NCBI GenBank assembly: GCA_018335195.1
Contig: JAGXKN010000004.1
Coordinates: 1 to 64,000, forward strand
Direction: 5' to 3'
Origin: Desulfobacterales bacterium
GTDB taxonomy: Bacteria > Desulfobacterota > Desulfobacteria > Desulfobacterales > Desulfosalsimonadaceae
Length of the DNA: 64,000 nucleotides
Position 1 is the stretch's first letter, and every line of letters starts with the position of its first letter. The notes under the pieces were generated by a model. The model saw nothing but the letters and a program-made list of their open reading frames with translations. It was not told the DNA's origin and did no database searches. Of the stretch, positions 264 to 6,484 are shown in pieces. A program made the position numbers and the translations under genes.

Positions 264-301
264 GACTACTGACCACTGACTACTGTCTACTGACTACTGA
301 C
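264..301. repeat. ACTGACTACTG short tandem repeat
   Basis: Imperfect tandem copies of an ACTGACTACTG-like unit cover the end of trpB and the start of the trpB-trpA gap. The unit supplies the last trpB codons and its TAG stop, so the repeat has probably replaced or extended the original 3' end of the gene. No role is evident. Confidence 0.6.
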
Positions 302-1504
302 CTCCGCCTCAGCCACGATGGACAGGTCCTTGTCCCCGCGGCCCGAGAGGTTGACCACGATGATCTGGTCGGCCGGCGCGCTCGAGGCGATTTGCATGGC
401 TGCTGACAGTGCGTGGGAGCTTTCCAGGGCCGGGATGATGCCTTCGGTGCGGCAAAGGGCGTAAAAGGCTTCGAGTGCTTGGGCATCGGTGATGCTCACG
501 TATTTTACCCAGCCCAGGTCCTTGAACAATGAATGTTCCGGGCCCACGCCGGGGTAATCCAGCCCCGCGGAAACCGAGTGGGCCTCGCTGATCTGCCCGT
601 AATTATCCTGGAGCAGGTACGACTTGGCGCCGTGCAGCACGCCCAGGGAACCGGCGCACAGGGTGGCCGAGTGTTTACCGGTATCAATGCCCTTGCCCGC
701 CGCTTCCACTCCGGTCATGGCCGCGGGATCATTGACAAACGGGTAAAACAGGCCCATGGCGTTGCTTCCCCCGCCCACGCAGGCCACCAGGTGATCGGGC
801 AATCGGCCGATTTCGCGCAAAGCTTGGTCCCGGGTTTCTTCTCCGATTACCTTCTGAAAATCCCGGACCATTGCCGGATACGGGTGCGGGCCGGCCACCG
901 AGCCGATTACGTAAAAGGTGTCGCGCACGGCAGAGACCCAGTAGCGCATGGCTTCGTTCATGGCGTCTTTCAGGGTGCCTGTACCGGATTCCACGGGCAC
1001 GACTTGCGCGCCCAGCAGTTCCATGCGGTTGACATTGGGCGCCTGGCGGCGGATGTCCTCGGTGCCCATGAAAATTTTGCAGTCCATACCGAAAAACGCC
1101 GCAGCCGTGGCCGTGGCCACCCCGTGCTGTCCCGCACCGGTCTCGGCGATCACCTTGGTTTTGCCCATCCATTTGGCCAGAAGCGCCTGGCCCAGGGTGT
1201 TGTTGATCTTGTGGGCCCCGGTGTGAAGCAGGTCCTCGCGCTTGAGGTAGATGGCAGCGCCCCCGGTTTTCCGGGTCAGTCGTTCTGCGTAATAAAGCGG
1301 GGTGGGCCGTCCGGCAAAGTCCTTGAGCAGGCCGTAGAGCTCCTTTTGAAAAGCGGGGTCCCGCACGTATTGTTGATAGGCTTCGTTTAGCTCCAGCAGG
1401 GCAGGCATCAGGGTTTCTGCCACGTACCGGCCGCCGTAGGGCCCGAAATGGCCTTTTTCATCCGGGTATCCGGTTATGGGGTTGTCGGCCTGCAATTCAG
1501 CCAT
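287..1504 (-). CDS. trpB: Tryptophan synthase beta chain
   Basis: This PLP enzyme condenses indole with serine to give tryptophan, in complex with TrpA in the cytoplasm. The 405-residue protein has the usual length for the short TrpB1 family. The N-terminal [11 protein letters not shown] segment, the cofactor-binding lysine in TGAHKINN (Lys99) and the phosphate-binding GGGSNAMG loop are all visible. Its ATG shares one base with the trpF stop (TGATG), so the two genes are translationally coupled. The last residues are encoded by a short tandem repeat, so the extreme C-terminus may not be ancestral. Confidence 0.98.
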
Positions 1505-2190
1505 CAGAATATTCTCCTTGTTGGTTGTGTGATTTCAGACAGGCGCACGGCATAAACAAAATCCCGCACCCGCCGGGTGTCCTTTCTGCCCGGAGCGGAT
1601 TCCACGCCCGAGCTCACGTCCACGGCATCCGGGCGCGCGGCTGCAATTGCTTCGGCCACGTTTTCCGGCCCGAGCCCGCCTGCAATGATAAAGGGGTATT
1701 GTTCATTAAAGTCCCGGGCCGCAGACCAGTCCCAGGTCATGGCATTGCCCCCGGGCAGCTTTCCGGCGGAGCATTCCACCAGAAATGCCGAAACATGGTA
1801 TTGCGATGCCTCTGAAACTGCCGGCCGGCCGCTTACATACAGGCACTTGATTACAATCAGGCCCTGTTCCATGAGGCGCCGGGCCAGTTCCGGGGGTTCT
1901 GCGCCGTGAAGCTGCACAGCATGCAGTCGGCACTGGTAGGCCGCCGCCATGATCGTTTCCTCGGATTCGTTGACAAAAACGCCCACCCGGGCGATGTGCG
2001 GCGGCAGAACACCGGTGATGTCCGCGGCCTGCGCCGGGGTGACATACCTGGGGCTTTTGGGATAAAACACCAAGCCGACGGCATCAACTCCCCAGGCGGC
2101 GCATGCCATGGCGTCTTCTGCCGCGGTGATGCCGCAGATCTTGATTTGGATGCGTTCGTGATGCCGGTGTAAGGTTTCTCCGGTATACAT
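1504..2190 (-). CDS. trpF: Phosphoribosylanthranilate isomerase
   Basis: Catalyses the Amadori rearrangement of phosphoribosylanthranilate in tryptophan synthesis. The 228-residue TIM barrel shows IKICGIT near residue 17 (catalytic Cys), [19 protein letters not shown] and [11 protein letters not shown]. The N-terminus chosen carries about 15 residues before IKICGIT, more than usual, but no better start lies between. The gene starts 7 bases after trpC ends and has only a weak ribosome site, so coupling to trpC is likely. Confidence 0.95.
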
Positions 2191-2197
2191 GTGTAGT

Positions 2198-2995
2198 CTA
2201 CCCGTTTTTCAGGTGCGTTAAAAAAGTTTCCGGGTCCTGTGCCCGGACCAGGCTTTCGCCGACAAGAAAGTTGCGGATTCCGGCTGCCAGGTTCTGCTCG
2301 ATGTCCGCGCGCGAAGCAATGCCGCTGGCTGCGATCGGAATCTGATGGGGGCCCATGGAGGCGGCCAGGTCCATGGCGTTTTGGATGTCCGTGTCAAAGG
2401 AGGCCAGGTTCCGATTGTTGATCCCGATGAGCACGGCCCCGGTTCCGGCCGCGATTTCCAGGTCCGCCGGGGTGTGGACTTCCACCAGGGCGTCGATGTC
2501 CAGATCCGCGCACAGGTCCAGCAGTTCGGCAAGCCGGGATTCTGACAGGATGCGAACGATCAGCAGCACGGCATCCGCCCCGCGTGCGGCGGCTTCGTAT
2601 ACCTGGTAATCCGAAACGATGAAGTCCTTGCGCAGAACCGGCAGTCCGGTTGCCCGGCGGGCGGCTTCCATGTCGTCCAGGCTTCCCTTGAAAAAGGTTG
2701 CATCCGTGAGCACGGAAAGGGCGACTGCGCCGCCGCGTTCATAAGCCGCGGCGTGTCGGGCCGGATCGAGCCCGGGACAGATATCGCCCTTTGAAGGCGA
2801 GGCCCGCTTGATCTCGGCGATAATGTTGACCTGACCCGGGTTTTTCATTGCCGCGCGAAAAGAGCGGAAATCGCTTCTTGCCCGGGCCGCGGCTTCCAGG
2901 TCGGAAACCGGGGTCTGCTGGCGGGCGGCGCGGATTTCGGCATTTTTGTGCGCCACGATTTTTGTCAGGATATCTTCGGCCATATGTTTATGCAT
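2198..2995 (-). CDS. trpC: Indole-3-glycerol phosphate synthase
   Basis: Closes the indole ring of the tryptophan precursor. The 265-residue protein carries IIAEIKRASPSKGDI near residue 60, VLRKDFIVSDYQVYEA near 120 and IGINNRNL near 190, which include the family's catalytic Lys and Glu residues. Two ATGs are possible, at 2995 and 2983. The first sits almost on top of a GGGAG site and the second lies 12 bases from it, so the start is uncertain by four codons. The first start overlaps the trpD stop by 8 bases. TrpC and TrpF are separate proteins here, not fused as in enterobacteria. Confidence 0.96.
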   Translation of the reverse strand: MHKHMAEDILTKIVAHKNAEIRAARQQTPVSDLEAAARARSDFRSFRAAMKNPGQVNIIAEIKRASPSKGDICPGLDPARHAAAYERGGAVALSVLTDATFFKGSLDDMEAARRATGLPVLRKDFIVSDYQVYEAAARGADAVLLIVRILSESRLAELLDLCADLDIDALVEVHTPADLEIAAGTGAVLIGINNRNLASFDTDIQNAMDLAASMGPHQIPIAASGIASRADIEQNLAAGIRNFLVGESLVRAQDPETFLTHLKNG

Positions 2996-4004
2996 TCTCC
3001 CGGGTAAAGGCGATCAGGGATTCCAGTTTATCCGCGGCAGCGCCCGTGTCAATGGCTGATTCCGCCATCTCGACGCCATGGCCGATTTTTTCCGCCCGAC
3101 CCGCGGCCATCAGGGCGGCCGCGGCATTGATGAGCACGATATCGCGTTTTGCCCCTTTTTCTCCGGCCAGGATGCTGCGGGTGATTTCTGCATTTTCCGC
3201 CGCATTGCCGCCCCGGATTTCCTCGGGATCTGCCAGGCGGCCGAAAAAGGTCTCGGGTGAAATGTCATACGTGATAATCTGCCGGTCCCGCAGTTCGCAT
3301 ACGCGGGTGGGCGCGCACACCGAGATCTCGTCCAGCCCGTCATGGCCGTGTACCACCAAGGCCCGTTTTGTGCCGAGCTGGCTTAATGCCTTGGCAAACA
3401 TCTCCGTGAGCTGGGGGGCAAATACGCCAAGAAGCTGGCAATTGGCAGCAGCCGGGTTGGTCAGGGGGCCGAGCATGTTGAATATGCTTCGCAGGCCCAC
3501 CTCTTTTCTGGGGTTTGCCGCATACTTCATGGCTCCGTGGTACCGGGGGGCAAACAGGAATCCGATCCCGATTTCGGCAATGGCTTCCTCCACGAGTTCC
3601 GGATCCAGGTCCAGGTTGATCCCCAGTGCCTCGAGCAAATCCGCGCTGCCGCACTGGCTGGAAACCGAGCGATTGCCGTGCTTGGCCACGGTGACCCCGC
3701 ATCCGGCCGCCACAAAAGCGGTGACAGTGGAGATGTTAAAGGTGCCGGCCGCATCTCCGCCGGTGCCGCAGGTGTCAATCACGTCGCCTGCCGCGGTTTC
3801 GATCCGGACGGCCTTTTTGCGCATGGCCCGGGCTGCGCCGGCAAGCTCGGCATAAGTTTCGCCCTTGGTGGCAAGCGCGGCCATGAATGCGCCCACCTGG
3901 GCGTCCGTGGTGTTTCCGGAAAAGATTTCGCCGATCATGGCCGCGGTTTCCGCCTCGGTGAGATCCTGCCGCCGGCAAATCTTGTTTAGCAGTTCGCGAA
4001 ACAT
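2988..4004 (-). CDS. trpD: Anthranilate phosphoribosyltransferase
   Basis: Transfers phosphoribose from PRPP to anthranilate. The 338-residue protein has the family length and shows the PRPP-binding DTCGTGGDAAGTFNIST segment near residue 80, KHGNRSVSSQCGSADLLEALG near 110, and the VVHGHDGLDE segment. It is a stand-alone enzyme, with the glutaminase TrpG encoded separately upstream. A 59-base gap separates it from trpG and its end overlaps trpC. Confidence 0.97.
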   Translation of the reverse strand: MFRELLNKICRRQDLTEAETAAMIGEIFSGNTTDAQVGAFMAALATKGETYAELAGAARAMRKKAVRIETAAGDVIDTCGTGGDAAGTFNISTVTAFVAAGCGVTVAKHGNRSVSSQCGSADLLEALGINLDLDPELVEEAIAEIGIGFLFAPRYHGAMKYAANPRKEVGLRSIFNMLGPLTNPAAANCQLLGVFAPQLTEMFAKALSQLGTKRALVVHGHDGLDEISVCAPTRVCELRDRQIITYDISPETFFGRLADPEEIRGGNAAENAEITRSILAGEKGAKRDIVLINAAAALMAAGRAEKIGHGVEMAESAIDTGAAADKLESLIAFTRENA

Positions 4005-4063
4005 TTCGGTTCTCCTGTATGGTTCAAAGTGAAATGATCAAAACGAGCGAAACCCGGATCGTT

Positions 4064-4633
4064 TTATTCGCACAACTTCAAAAAGTTTCTCAGTATCCGT
4101 TTACCCACCGGGGTCATGATCGATTCCGGGTGAAATTGGATGCCTTCGGTGGTGTGCTGGCGGTGCCGGAGCCCCATGATTTCGCTGTCTTCGCTTTCAG
4201 CGCTGATTTCCAGGCATTCCGGCAGGCTCTGCCGGTCCACGGTCAGGGAATGATAGCGCATGGCGGCAAACGGCTTGTTCATGCGCGAGAATATGGTTTT
4301 GCCGTCTGCTGTCACAGTGGAAACCTTGCCGTGCATGAGCTTTTTGGCCGCCCGGATACGGCCGCCGAATGCGTGCGCAATTGCCTGGTGACCCAGGCAG
4401 ACCCCGAGAATGGGAATTTCTCCGGAAAACCGCCGGATCACTTCGACGGAAAGCCCGGATTTCTGCGGGACCCCGGGCCCCGGGGAGACCACGATGCCGG
4501 AAAATCCGCCGGTATCCAGTGTGCCGATGTCAAAGGCATCGTTTCTGCACACGCGGACTTCGGCTTCGAGCTGCCGCAGATATTGCACCAGGTTATAGGT
4601 AAAGGAGTCGTAGTTGTCGATCACAAATATCAT
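4064..4633 (-). CDS. trpG: Anthranilate synthase component II (glutamine amidotransferase)
   Basis: Supplies ammonia from glutamine to TrpE. The 189-residue class I amidotransferase shows VIDNYDSFTYNLVQYL at the N-terminus, the oxyanion strand VVSPGPG, the nucleophile Cys in LGVCLGHQAIAHAFGG and the catalytic His-Glu in QFHPESI. An AAGGAG site lies 5 bases before the ATG. The gene begins 9 bases after trpE ends. The family can also serve folate synthesis as PabA, but its place inside the trp operon favours tryptophan. Confidence 0.97.
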   Translation of the reverse strand: MIFVIDNYDSFTYNLVQYLRQLEAEVRVCRNDAFDIGTLDTGGFSGIVVSPGPGVPQKSGLSVEVIRRFSGEIPILGVCLGHQAIAHAFGGRIRAAKKLMHGKVSTVTADGKTIFSRMNKPFAAMRYHSLTVDRQSLPECLEISAESEDSEIMGLRHRQHTTEGIQFHPESIMTPVGKRILRNFLKLCE

Positions 4634-4642
4634 GTCCGCTCC

Positions 4643-6133
4643 TTACTGCAGTTGATGTTCCATGAGTTCCAGGGCCCGGCCGATGGCCGCGGCCTTGTTC
4701 ACGGTTTCCGTGTATTCGGCATCCGGGTCCGAGTCCGCCACGATGCCGGCGCCTGCCCGCACCACGAGGTTTCCGTCCTGGATGCAGGCGGTGCGTATGG
4801 TAATGGCCAGGTCCATGTTGCCGTGAAACGAGATATAACCCACGGCCCCGCCGTAAGGCCCCCGGGGTTCGGATTCGAGCTCGGAGATGATTTCCATGGC
4901 CCGGACCTTTGGCGCCCCGCTCAGGGTGCCGGCCGGAAATGTGGCGGCCAGCAGGTCCCAGGCATCGCAGTTTTCCAGCAGATCGCAGGTGATATTGGAG
5001 ACCAGGTGCATGACATGGGAATAGCGCTCCACGATCATCAGGTCTGTTACCTGCACGGTGCCGGTTTCCGCCACCCGGCCCAGGTCGTTTCTGCCCAGGT
5101 CCACGAGCATGAGGTGCTCTGCGCGCTCTTTTTCGTCCTGCAGCATTTCGTCTGCCAGGGCCCGGTCTTTCTGCTCGGTTTTGCCGCGCGGGCGGGTGCC
5201 GGCAATGGGCCGGAGCGTGGCAATGTTGTTTTCCAGGCGGACCATGGTCTCGGGCGAGGATCCCACCAGCACGGTGTCATCGAGATGCATGAAAAACATG
5301 TACGGCGACGGGTTGATATAGCGCTGGGCTCGGTACAGGGCCGTGGGATCGGCCGGGACGCGGTTTGCGCAAAACGGCTGGGAAATCACGGCCTGGATGA
5401 TTTCTCCCTCCCGGATGCGGGCCTTGGCGGTCTCCACATGCTTCTTGTACAGGGCCGCATCATGGACCGGGGTGAGGGATATGCCTTCTCTCGTCTGCGC
5501 TTCGGGATAGGGTTGGGCCCTGTCGTCGCGCACCGAATCCTGCAGGCGGTCGATTTTTGATTCCGCTGCATCATATGCTGCCTCAGCATCTGCATGATCG
5601 TCTTTAAAGACAATGGCCACCATCATCAGGGTATTTTTAATATTGTCAAAAATCAGCATTTCATCCGGTACCATGAAGTCCGCCAGGGGACGGTCCGCGG
5701 GCATCCGGTTTTCAATGGCCTCGAAAAAGCTGACCGTTTCATAAGCAAAATACCCCACGAGCCCGCCCCAGAACCGGGGAAGGCCGGGCAGCACGGTCGG
5801 GGTGTAGCGCGCCATCAGGTCCCGCAGCACCGGCAGCGGGTCGCCCTGGTGGTGGATCTGCTCCTTTTGGCCGTTGGTGTCCATTTCCACGGCATCTGCA
5901 AACACCCGGACCCGGGTGCGGGCCGAGGTGCTCAGGAAACTGTAGCGCCCCCAGCGCTCCCCGCCTTCCACGCTTTCCAGCAGAAATGCCGGGGAATTCC
6001 GGGTGTATAATTTCTTGAGCACCGATACCGGGGTTTCCATGTCCGCCAGGATTTCGCGGCAGACCGGCACCACGTTATGGTTTGTGTAGTATTCGGCAAA
6101 AGCGGCTTTGTCCGGAAATTGTCGCAGCAGCAT
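4643..6133 (-). CDS. trpE: Anthranilate synthase component I
   Basis: Converts chorismate and ammonia to anthranilate, the first committed step to tryptophan. I place the start at 6133, giving 496 residues, because AAGGAG lies 7 bases upstream of that ATG. An in-frame ATG at 6199 lies within the attenuator hairpin and would add 22 unlikely residues. The N-terminal half includes LLESVEGGERWGRYSF, containing the LLES element tied to tryptophan feedback binding. The C-terminal half has the chorismate-binding GTRPRGK, DLGRNDLGRV and GTLSGAPKVRAMEI blocks. It is first in the operon, directly behind the attenuator. Confidence 0.97.
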   Translation of the reverse strand: MLLRQFPDKAAFAEYYTNHNVVPVCREILADMETPVSVLKKLYTRNSPAFLLESVEGGERWGRYSFLSTSARTRVRVFADAVEMDTNGQKEQIHHQGDPLPVLRDLMARYTPTVLPGLPRFWGGLVGYFAYETVSFFEAIENRMPADRPLADFMVPDEMLIFDNIKNTLMMVAIVFKDDHADAEAAYDAAESKIDRLQDSVRDDRAQPYPEAQTREGISLTPVHDAALYKKHVETAKARIREGEIIQAVISQPFCANRVPADPTALYRAQRYINPSPYMFFMHLDDTVLVGSSPETMVRLENNIATLRPIAGTRPRGKTEQKDRALADEMLQDEKERAEHLMLVDLGRNDLGRVAETGTVQVTDLMIVERYSHVMHLVSNITCDLLENCDAWDLLAATFPAGTLSGAPKVRAMEIISELESEPRGPYGGAVGYISFHGNMDLAITIRTACIQDGNLVVRAGAGIVADSDPDAEYTETVNKAAAIGRALELMEHQLQ

Positions 6134-6200
6134 GCCGGGCTCCTTTCCTTTTGTTTGGGTGCATATTTGCCGGTTTTTCTGTTTTTGTGCCGTTTCCATA

Positions 6201-6233
6201 AAAAAGGCCGCGGGGAAGCCCCGCGGCCTTTTT
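6201..6233 (-). terminator. trp attenuator terminator hairpin
   Basis: On the minus strand GGCCGCGGGG pairs with CCCCGCGGCC around a three-base loop, is framed by A5/T5, and is followed by a T run. It sits 68 bases before the trpE start and after the leader peptide, exactly where an attenuator terminator belongs. The DNA is nearly symmetric, so it could terminate in both directions, but only the trp direction makes sense with its context. Confidence 0.85.
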
Positions 6234-6253
6234 GGCGTGTGTCAATGCAAAAC

Positions 6254-6291
6254 AAAAAAGACCGGGGGGCCGGGGGCCGCCTCGGTCTTTT
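6254..6291 (-). promoter_or_regulatory. trp leader upstream hairpin / possible antiterminator arm
   Basis: On the minus strand AAAAGACCG pairs with CGGTCTTTT around a G/C-rich loop, followed by T6, so it may itself terminate. Within it, CCCCCGGCC (plus-strand 6268-6276) can pair with GGCCGCGGGG of the downstream terminator, leaving one bulged C, which would block that terminator. Its CCGGTC can pair with GACCGG at the end of the leader peptide gene. This gives a workable 1-2-3-4 attenuator, but the pairing was read by eye and no energies were computed. Confidence 0.6.
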
Positions 6292-6309
6292 GCTTGCGCT
6301 ATGGTTTGC

Positions 6310-6399
6310 TCAAACCGGTCCGAAGGCAGACCCCGATATGGAGATCCGCCACCACCAGTTTTTGTTCGGGCTGATTGCCTGCAATATGTGATGTGTCAT
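6310..6399 (-). CDS. trpL: trp operon leader peptide with three tandem Trp codons
   Basis: A 29-codon reading frame from ATG to TGA upstream of trpE contains TGG TGG TGG as codons 15-17 in the context NKNWWWRIS and ends SAFGPV. Three Trp codons in a row in a short frame, followed by a strong terminator and then trpE, is the hallmark of ribosome-mediated attenuation. When charged tRNA-Trp is scarce the ribosome stalls at the TGG codons and favours the antiterminator. The ribosome site is weak (GAGAG about 11 bases upstream). The peptide itself is unlikely to have a function. Confidence 0.85.
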   Translation of the reverse strand: MTHHILQAISPNKNWWWRISISGSAFGPV

Positions 6400-6455: not shown

Positions 6456-6484
6456 AAATAAAAGTTTTTATCCGGATTTGTCAA
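6456..6484 (-). promoter_or_regulatory. Candidate trp promoter
   Basis: On the minus strand a perfect TTGACA is followed after 17 bases by TTATTT, placed about 60 bases before the leader peptide start. A GTTAAC element lies just downstream and recalls the centre of the enterobacterial TrpR operator, but the flanks do not match. I do not claim a TrpR site. Confidence 0.5.

Follow-up and report, generated by a model that had tools for sequence, protein, structure and literature searches.

The whole 64,000-nt stretch of DNA that we analysed, here called the window, carries a trp operon preceded by an attenuator region, and all features of both lie on the minus strand. The gene order 3' of the attenuator is trpE, trpG, trpD, trpC, trpF, trpB. 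The trpE gene (4643..6133), encoding anthranilate synthase component I, was identified with TIGR00564 (521.7 bits against a cut-off of 517.7), and the remainder of the operon within the window, trpG to trpB, occupies 287..4633 according to NCBIfam models and ORFs. A cinA-family gene is located upstream of the operon in divergent orientation. The likely start codon of trpE is ATG 6133, which is preceded by GGAAAGGAG (6148-6140) and was preferred because of this ribosome binding site and of the homologues. The longest trpE ORF opens at ATG 6199, adjoining the T-run of terminator B (see below), and automatic annotation would probably choose this in-frame ATG. We set it aside as the start of trpE, since the ribosome site belongs to ATG 6133.

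The probable -35 hexamer of the trp promoter is TTGACA at 6479..6484, and its position upstream of the Trp codons is kept in relatives. The same hexamer was found 20 to 230 nt 5' of the Trp codons in 60/60 sufficiently long trpE leaders, compared with 3.7 expected from mononucleotide shuffles. A less clear candidate for the -10 element is TATTTA (6460-6455), separated from TTGACA by an 18-nt spacer. When the window was scanned with Rfam, tRNA was the sole family at gathering score.

The leader ORF begins at ATG 6399, ends with the stop codon TGA 6310 (6310..6399) and encodes the 29-residue peptide MTHHILQAISPNKNWWWRISISGSAFGPV. Codons 15 to 17 (6349..6357) are three consecutive Trp codons, the putative sensor, and relatives have Trp-rich leaders with Trp runs at the corresponding position. 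Between this ORF and trpE lie two GC-rich hairpins, each with six T residues after it. The leader, its Trp codons and the two hairpins with their T-runs had all been proposed in the initial annotation, and we confirmed them on the minus strand.

Hairpin A (about 6290-6257) has a GACCG..CGGTC base and is followed by T6 at 6254..6259, a T-run kept in relatives. Its 5' arm is A5 (GACCGAGGCGG, 6277..6287) and its 3' arm is A3 (CCCCCCGGTC, 6260..6269); in the window's genus the hairpin is imperfect, with A.C and C.C mismatches. Hairpin B has a core of 10 G-C pairs with a CTT loop (6206..6228), extended by runs of five A and five T, and T6 at 6200..6205. Its arms are B5 (GGCCGCGGGG, 6219..6228) and B3 (CCCCGCGGCC, 6206..6215). 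Two segments of the leader ORF also take part in predicted pairings. Segment X (GGGTCTGCCTTCGG; motif GGGTCTGCC; 6320..6333) is a candidate antiterminator arm for terminator A, with a predicted X:A5 duplex of -24.3 kcal/mol (p 0.033), and segment 1, from the last Trp codon onward (6340..6351), can pair with X (predicted duplex -18.8 kcal/mol, p 0.037). A3 is also a potential partner of B5. The whole-arm A3:B5 duplex is predicted at -24.0 kcal/mol (p 0.007), in a register of 6268-6260 with 6228-6220 that contains one C.C mismatch. The initial annotation had paired CCCCCGGCC with GGCCGCGGGG; this pairing is possible, but the best register is the one given here.

We collected relatives with a trpE query. 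Matches were obtained in 33 of the 36 family genomes, any match being counted and weaker paralogues included, and at 48 loci of a genome collection, mostly from MAGs titled Desulfobacteraceae, Desulfobacterales or Deltaproteobacteria. The 77 loci with a trpE start gave 66 distinct upstream regions, from which two short contig ends with no leader region (L036, L065) and two regions from an archaeon and a Bacillota genome (L099, L101) were dropped, so that 62 were kept. With a strict script, which required a hairpin of -7 kcal/mol or lower and 4 or more T, both hairpins with T-runs were found before trpE in 58/62. The failures, L035, L079, L083 and L100, each had one hairpin whose signal was weaker or shorter, and a looser script (at least 3 T, -5 kcal/mol) found a best hairpin pair in 62/62. 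The median spacing between the A and B T-runs was 41.5 nt in the 62 leaders. Weak T-runs were seen at A in L033 and L034 (T4) and L035 (T3), and at B in L083 (T4) and L100 (T3). Judged from these relatives, the Trp leader followed by a double hairpin is an old, conserved layout and more than the oddity of one genome.

After hairpin A, the T-run has at least 4 T in 61/62 leaders and at least 5 in 59/62, which supports the earlier suggestion that the upstream hairpin may be a second terminator in a tandem design. Hairpin A might instead be merely the protector or pause hairpin of a classical four-segment attenuator, with B as the sole terminator and the T-run of A incidental. The mismatches of hairpin A in the window's genus and the short T-runs of L033-L035 would fit such a role. 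A protector, however, would not need the T-run that is kept in nearly all leaders, and the X:A5 pairing resembles a classical antiterminator. We regard a sole terminator at B as unlikely.

All 62 trpE leaders were scored as having a run of Trp codons, either WWW or something close to it, the call in L072 being doubtful; a comparison of relatives for these codons had been proposed at the outset, and they are conserved. WWW was found in 44 leaders, WWWW in 8, WCW in 6 and other types in 4. Only 29 of 60 leaders had a Shine-Dalgarno-like tetramer ahead of the chosen ATG, so the leader starts are less certain than the leader stops. The Trp-Cys-Trp sensor (TGG TGT TGG) replaces Trp-Trp-Trp in the trpE leaders L067, L076, L077, L078, L083 and L093, and WWCWWWC was found in some DAHP synthase leaders. 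From such leaders, Cys could also be sensed. Upstream of trpE in L072, both hairpins are intact, the usual leader is missing, and a longer inverted repeat lies ahead of the hairpins; this region possibly has an insertion or an altered sensor.

The alternative helices were assessed by comparing the predicted duplex energy with 300 dinucleotide shuffles per locus. At p<0.05, the shuffles were beaten by X:A5 in 50/62 leaders, by A3:B5 in 45/62 and by segment 1:X in 42/61. We then used an alignment of 61 leaders (A1), from which L072 was excluded because its leader looks replaced. The cells paired in A1 amounted to 91.2% for A5:A3, 94.0% for B5:B3, 91.1% for A3:B5 and about 80% for X:A5, the last value being lowered by a one-column shift in the seven rows of the window's genus. 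When partner columns were slid by 1-3, pairing dropped to at most 54%. Covariation was seen for A5:A3, A3:B5 and B5:B3. The conserved pairings are X (GGGTCTGCC):A5 and A3:B5, which would link both terminators into one relay and which were absent from the initial annotation. That annotation had instead paired GACCGG at the leader's end with CCGGTC in A3. This pairing is restricted to the window's genus (ACCGG in 7/61 rows of A1, counted by eye), and we rejected it because it is genus-specific, has the wrong parity and would keep A3 from pairing with B5.

The A3:B5 pairing was also compared with unrelated terminators from the same sequences, 63 of which were used for whole-arm energy. The mean whole-arm energy of A3:B5 was -16.7 kcal/mol compared with -11.3 kcal/mol for the unrelated terminators, but individually p<0.05 was reached in only 11/62 leaders (median p 0.23). 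Register counts and a longest-helix test are tighter versions, chosen after this result. Of 8 in-register positions, 7 or more were paired in 53/62 attenuators and in 4.5% of random terminator pairs, and all 8 in 38/62 and 0.5%, respectively. The longest uninterrupted A3:B5 helix had at least 7 pairs in 41/62 compared with 10% of random pairs. Since related leaders are not independent, these control figures are effect sizes and not probabilities. For the window, A3:B5 gave p 0.016 by whole-arm energy against the unrelated terminators, and its longest uninterrupted run is limited to 6 pairs by the C.C mismatch. When 53 additional loci were counted automatically, 49 were scored (4 had no pair) and at least 7 pairs were found in 21/49, but variable arm starts had spoiled this register count.

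These results bear on whether only terminator A is switched, with B as a fixed back-up whose likeness to A is left from a duplication. The arms of A and B are indeed alike, as expected after duplication, and the individual whole-arm A3:B5 energies are not extreme. A strong fixed B, however, would block induction. Over eight shared columns of A1, the two partners of A3 are nearly equal, with about 95% of cells paired for B5 and about 93.5% for A5. At column 123 the A5 base is mismatched with A3 in 12 rows whereas B5 pairs there in 59/61; this 12-row group retains the match of C123 to B5 despite the A5 mismatch. The A3:B5 match also persists in the Phe/Tyr leaders described below, where at least 7 uninterrupted pairs were found in 15/16 compared with 10% at random (the count covers L142, L188-L201 and L203; L202, L204-L207 and the Trp loci of the 53-locus set are outside it). 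A fixed B seems to us slightly less likely still than a sole terminator at B.

We consider it probable that transcription of the trp operon is attenuated here by a ribosome-mediated device in which two serial intrinsic terminators are thrown together by one ribosome through mutually exclusive helices. The helix chain would be 1:X, X:A5, A5:A3, A3:B5 and B5:B3, and from it we infer ribosome stalling, termination at each T-run and an order of folding, as follows. Under a shortage of charged tRNA-Trp, the ribosome would stall at codons 15-17 and cover segment 1. The free X would capture the emerging A5, so that terminator A is blocked; A3, freed by X:A5, would in turn capture B5, terminator B would be blocked as well, and polymerase would continue into trpE. 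With Trp in ample supply, the ribosome would reach the stop codon and cover X, A5:A3 and B5:B3 would form, and transcription would end at A, or at B when A leaks. Without translation, 1:X would form, with the same off result as plentiful Trp. The predicted alternation is that X:A5 with A3:B5 turns both terminators off and A5:A3 with B5:B3 turns both on. The enterobacterial type of attenuation logic invoked in the initial annotation is supported by the Trp-codon leader and the competing helices.

The leading edge of a ribosome lies about 12-15 nt ahead. With this footprint, segment 1 but not X is covered by a ribosome stalled at codons 15-17, and X is covered by one at the stop. Folding with the ribosome at these two positions had been proposed as a check. 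Folding at equilibrium, with the ribosome-covered positions masked, failed to distinguish the states, and both terminators were on in most leaders despite a stalled ribosome; from stall to stop, P(A) rose by more than 0.2 in 15/62 leaders and P(B) in 8/62. The E. coli trpL control gave 0.955 stalled and 0.96 at the stop, so that a proven switch was likewise invisible. Because this control behaves the same, equilibrium folding was not used as evidence and sequential folding was used instead. In raw counts, before A3 was made, the X region had at least 6 expected pairs with A5 in 62/62 leaders with a stalled ribosome but in 1/62 with the ribosome at the stop. With A5 engaged and before B3 was made, A3:B5 had at least 6 pairs in 62/62, likewise as a raw count. 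The check thus showed no switch at equilibrium, but the predicted exchange of X:A5 was seen in sequential folding. It is very improbable that the RNA or peptide acts elsewhere (as a small RNA, a trans-acting leader peptide or by translational control) and not through termination in cis: trans-acting functions have been reported for leader peptides of Sinorhizobium (PMC7298713), but here two terminator-like hairpins lie immediately ahead of the gene, the trpE ribosome site is uncovered, with 72 nt between the T-run of B and the ATG, and the sensor codons fit the product of most of the downstream genes read.

The two-terminator attenuator has the features expected of amino-acid attenuators in general. 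There is a short leader ORF with codons for the product (62/62 trpE leaders, one doubtful), an intrinsic terminator, as judged by sequence, between the leader ORF and the first gene (two in 58/62), and a leader segment complementary to a terminator arm that, with the footprint above, would be exposed at the stall and covered at the stop. Rfam RF00513 (Trp_leader) had no match above its gathering score in the window and was over the cut-off in 0/31 relatives' genomes, while the E. coli control was positive. No T-box family match was above gathering score within the window. The single-terminator, four-segment class does not describe a leader with two conserved hairpins with T-runs, nor does the mgtCBR type of tandem, as one leader ORF lies ahead of both hairpins; among the listed ORFs, there was no second one with a Trp run between the hairpins. 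By its anatomy, the attenuator would be classed as ribosome-mediated, and it is neither a member of RF00513 by score nor, from its two hairpins, single-terminator.

In E. coli trpL, a leader peptide with Trp codons is encoded, a leader segment competes with a terminator arm, and the terminator precedes trpE. The region described here is like E. coli trpL (RF00513) in its Trp leader, its competing leader segment and its terminator ahead of trpE, but there are one terminator and four segments there and two terminators and six segments here. Like the trp attenuators of Corynebacterium and Streptomyces, it has consecutive UGG codons (double or triple there), GC-rich terminators and complementary triples common to antiterminator and terminator; in the sections of that report available, one terminator is described and none in tandem (PMC1262725). 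The Salmonella mgtCBR leader also has more than one attenuation step, but with two ORFs and two signals, in contrast to one ORF, one signal and two pairing-linked intrinsic terminators here; that paper says that the mgtCBR stem-loops do not resemble intrinsic terminators and that nutrient biosynthesis genes are normally under a single attenuator (PMC3641672). In some Gammaproteobacteria, the rimP-leader has a second upstream terminator in tandem and a potential antiterminator, but the excerpt mentions no leader peptide, and the rimP-leader is not an amino-acid sensor (PMC2965389). An attenuator was predicted for the aroA'>aroB'..trp operon of another sulfate reducer, Desulfovibrio vulgaris, an aromatic operon headed by alternative-pathway genes; it is database-listed, and in the portion of the source available neither leader peptide nor tandem structure is given (PMC1173090). 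Within the open full-text literature searched, we found no account of a biosynthetic operon in which tandem terminators are linked and controlled by a single leader peptide.

A covariance model of the leader and hairpins (R1) was used to follow the spread of the device. At a threshold of E at most 1e-3, R1 matched 328/389 genomes of the order (174/201 good-quality ones), 325/389 of a class sample consisting of nearly the same genomes, and 182/395 across the phylum. The Bacillota control gave 11/149 at 1e-3 and 1/149 at 1e-6, the latter being two terminators at a gene end. Given this control, matches with E between 1e-6 and 1e-3 were taken as weak; about 272/389 in the order and about 114/395 in the phylum passed 1e-6 (rows counted by eye). 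The phylum search yielded 25 newly found loci (L163-L187), with Trp codons in every leader. Profile-tested genes after R1 Trp loci were trpD (L163), DAHP synthase (L164, L167, L171, L143, L150) and anthranilate synthase (L170, L174). In L143, L144 and L151, the trp attenuator forms a divergent pair with a Trp-codon attenuator on the opposite strand, a few hundred nt apart; that of L143 lies ahead of a DAHP synthase gene.

A second R1 match was found in the window's own genome (L135 / L142; C52:9597-9732, minus strand; E 8e-10), before a gene for ADH synthase (TIGR01949), an enzyme of the alternative aromatic pathway. Its leader, MNTGSPRFYYAYYYFYATGLPPAR, is rich in Phe and Tyr (FYYAYYYFY), and its X motif GGGTCTGCC exactly complements GGCAGACCC within A5. 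We examined 20 further regions, picked mostly for an R1 match without a Trp end and not a random sample. In this set, Phe/Tyr-rich leaders precede genes for ADH synthase, two kinds of DAHP synthase, an aminotransferase and Peripla_BP_6 proteins, and Trp leaders precede a TrpB-like enzyme. The latter are short Trp-run leaders in L204 and L205, ahead of a TrpB-like PLP enzyme (TIGR01415 in L204), and their sequence suggests a Trp-related role for the enzyme there. In L193 and L195, Phe/Tyr-rich leaders and tandem hairpins precede Peripla_BP_6 binding proteins, which may, by their leaders, belong to aromatic rather than branched-chain amino-acid transporters. L202 has a Leu/Val/Ile-rich leader (ISLVLIVV) and two hairpins before the acetolactate synthase large subunit, a weak case in which the R1 match covers the hairpins only; it may represent an Ile/Leu/Val version of this kind of attenuator.

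When leaders with different sensor amino acids are compared, GTCTGC(C), the X motif, occurs in all three reading frames. The exact 7-mer is found in 24/62 trp leaders and is in frame 2 in 22 of these 24. It is in frame 1 in L142 and L189-L192 (L188 has GTTTGCC) and in frame 0 in L193-L195, L198, L199 and L184. This use of three frames points to selection on the RNA and not on the peptide. We lean, with somewhat less confidence than for the trp attenuator itself, towards a modular device spread across the phylum, in which one ribosome, two intrinsic terminators and a five-helix relay form a fixed RNA core that is re-used with varied sensors and kept for a deeper yet jointly released shut-off. 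The core would consist of X GGTCTGCC and arms around CCGTGG or CCATGG. The sensor codons would be for Trp, Phe/Tyr and perhaps Ile/Leu/Val, and the target genes would be trpE and those for DAHP/ADH synthase, an aminotransferase, TrpB-like enzymes and transporters.

Attenuation is known as a textbook switch with one terminator. On the sequences compared here, the two-terminator attenuator would be an unusual form of known ribosome-mediated attenuation that is widely distributed. If the relay is true, its conservation would show that terminator strength can be multiplied without loss of induction, and it supplies a testable rule of alternating helices. R1 also serves as an annotation tool for Trp and Phe/Tyr leaders before genes for DAHP synthases, the alternative aromatic pathway and periplasmic binding proteins. 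From the leaders that it finds, the signals to which these genes respond in sulfate reducers and related organisms can be predicted.
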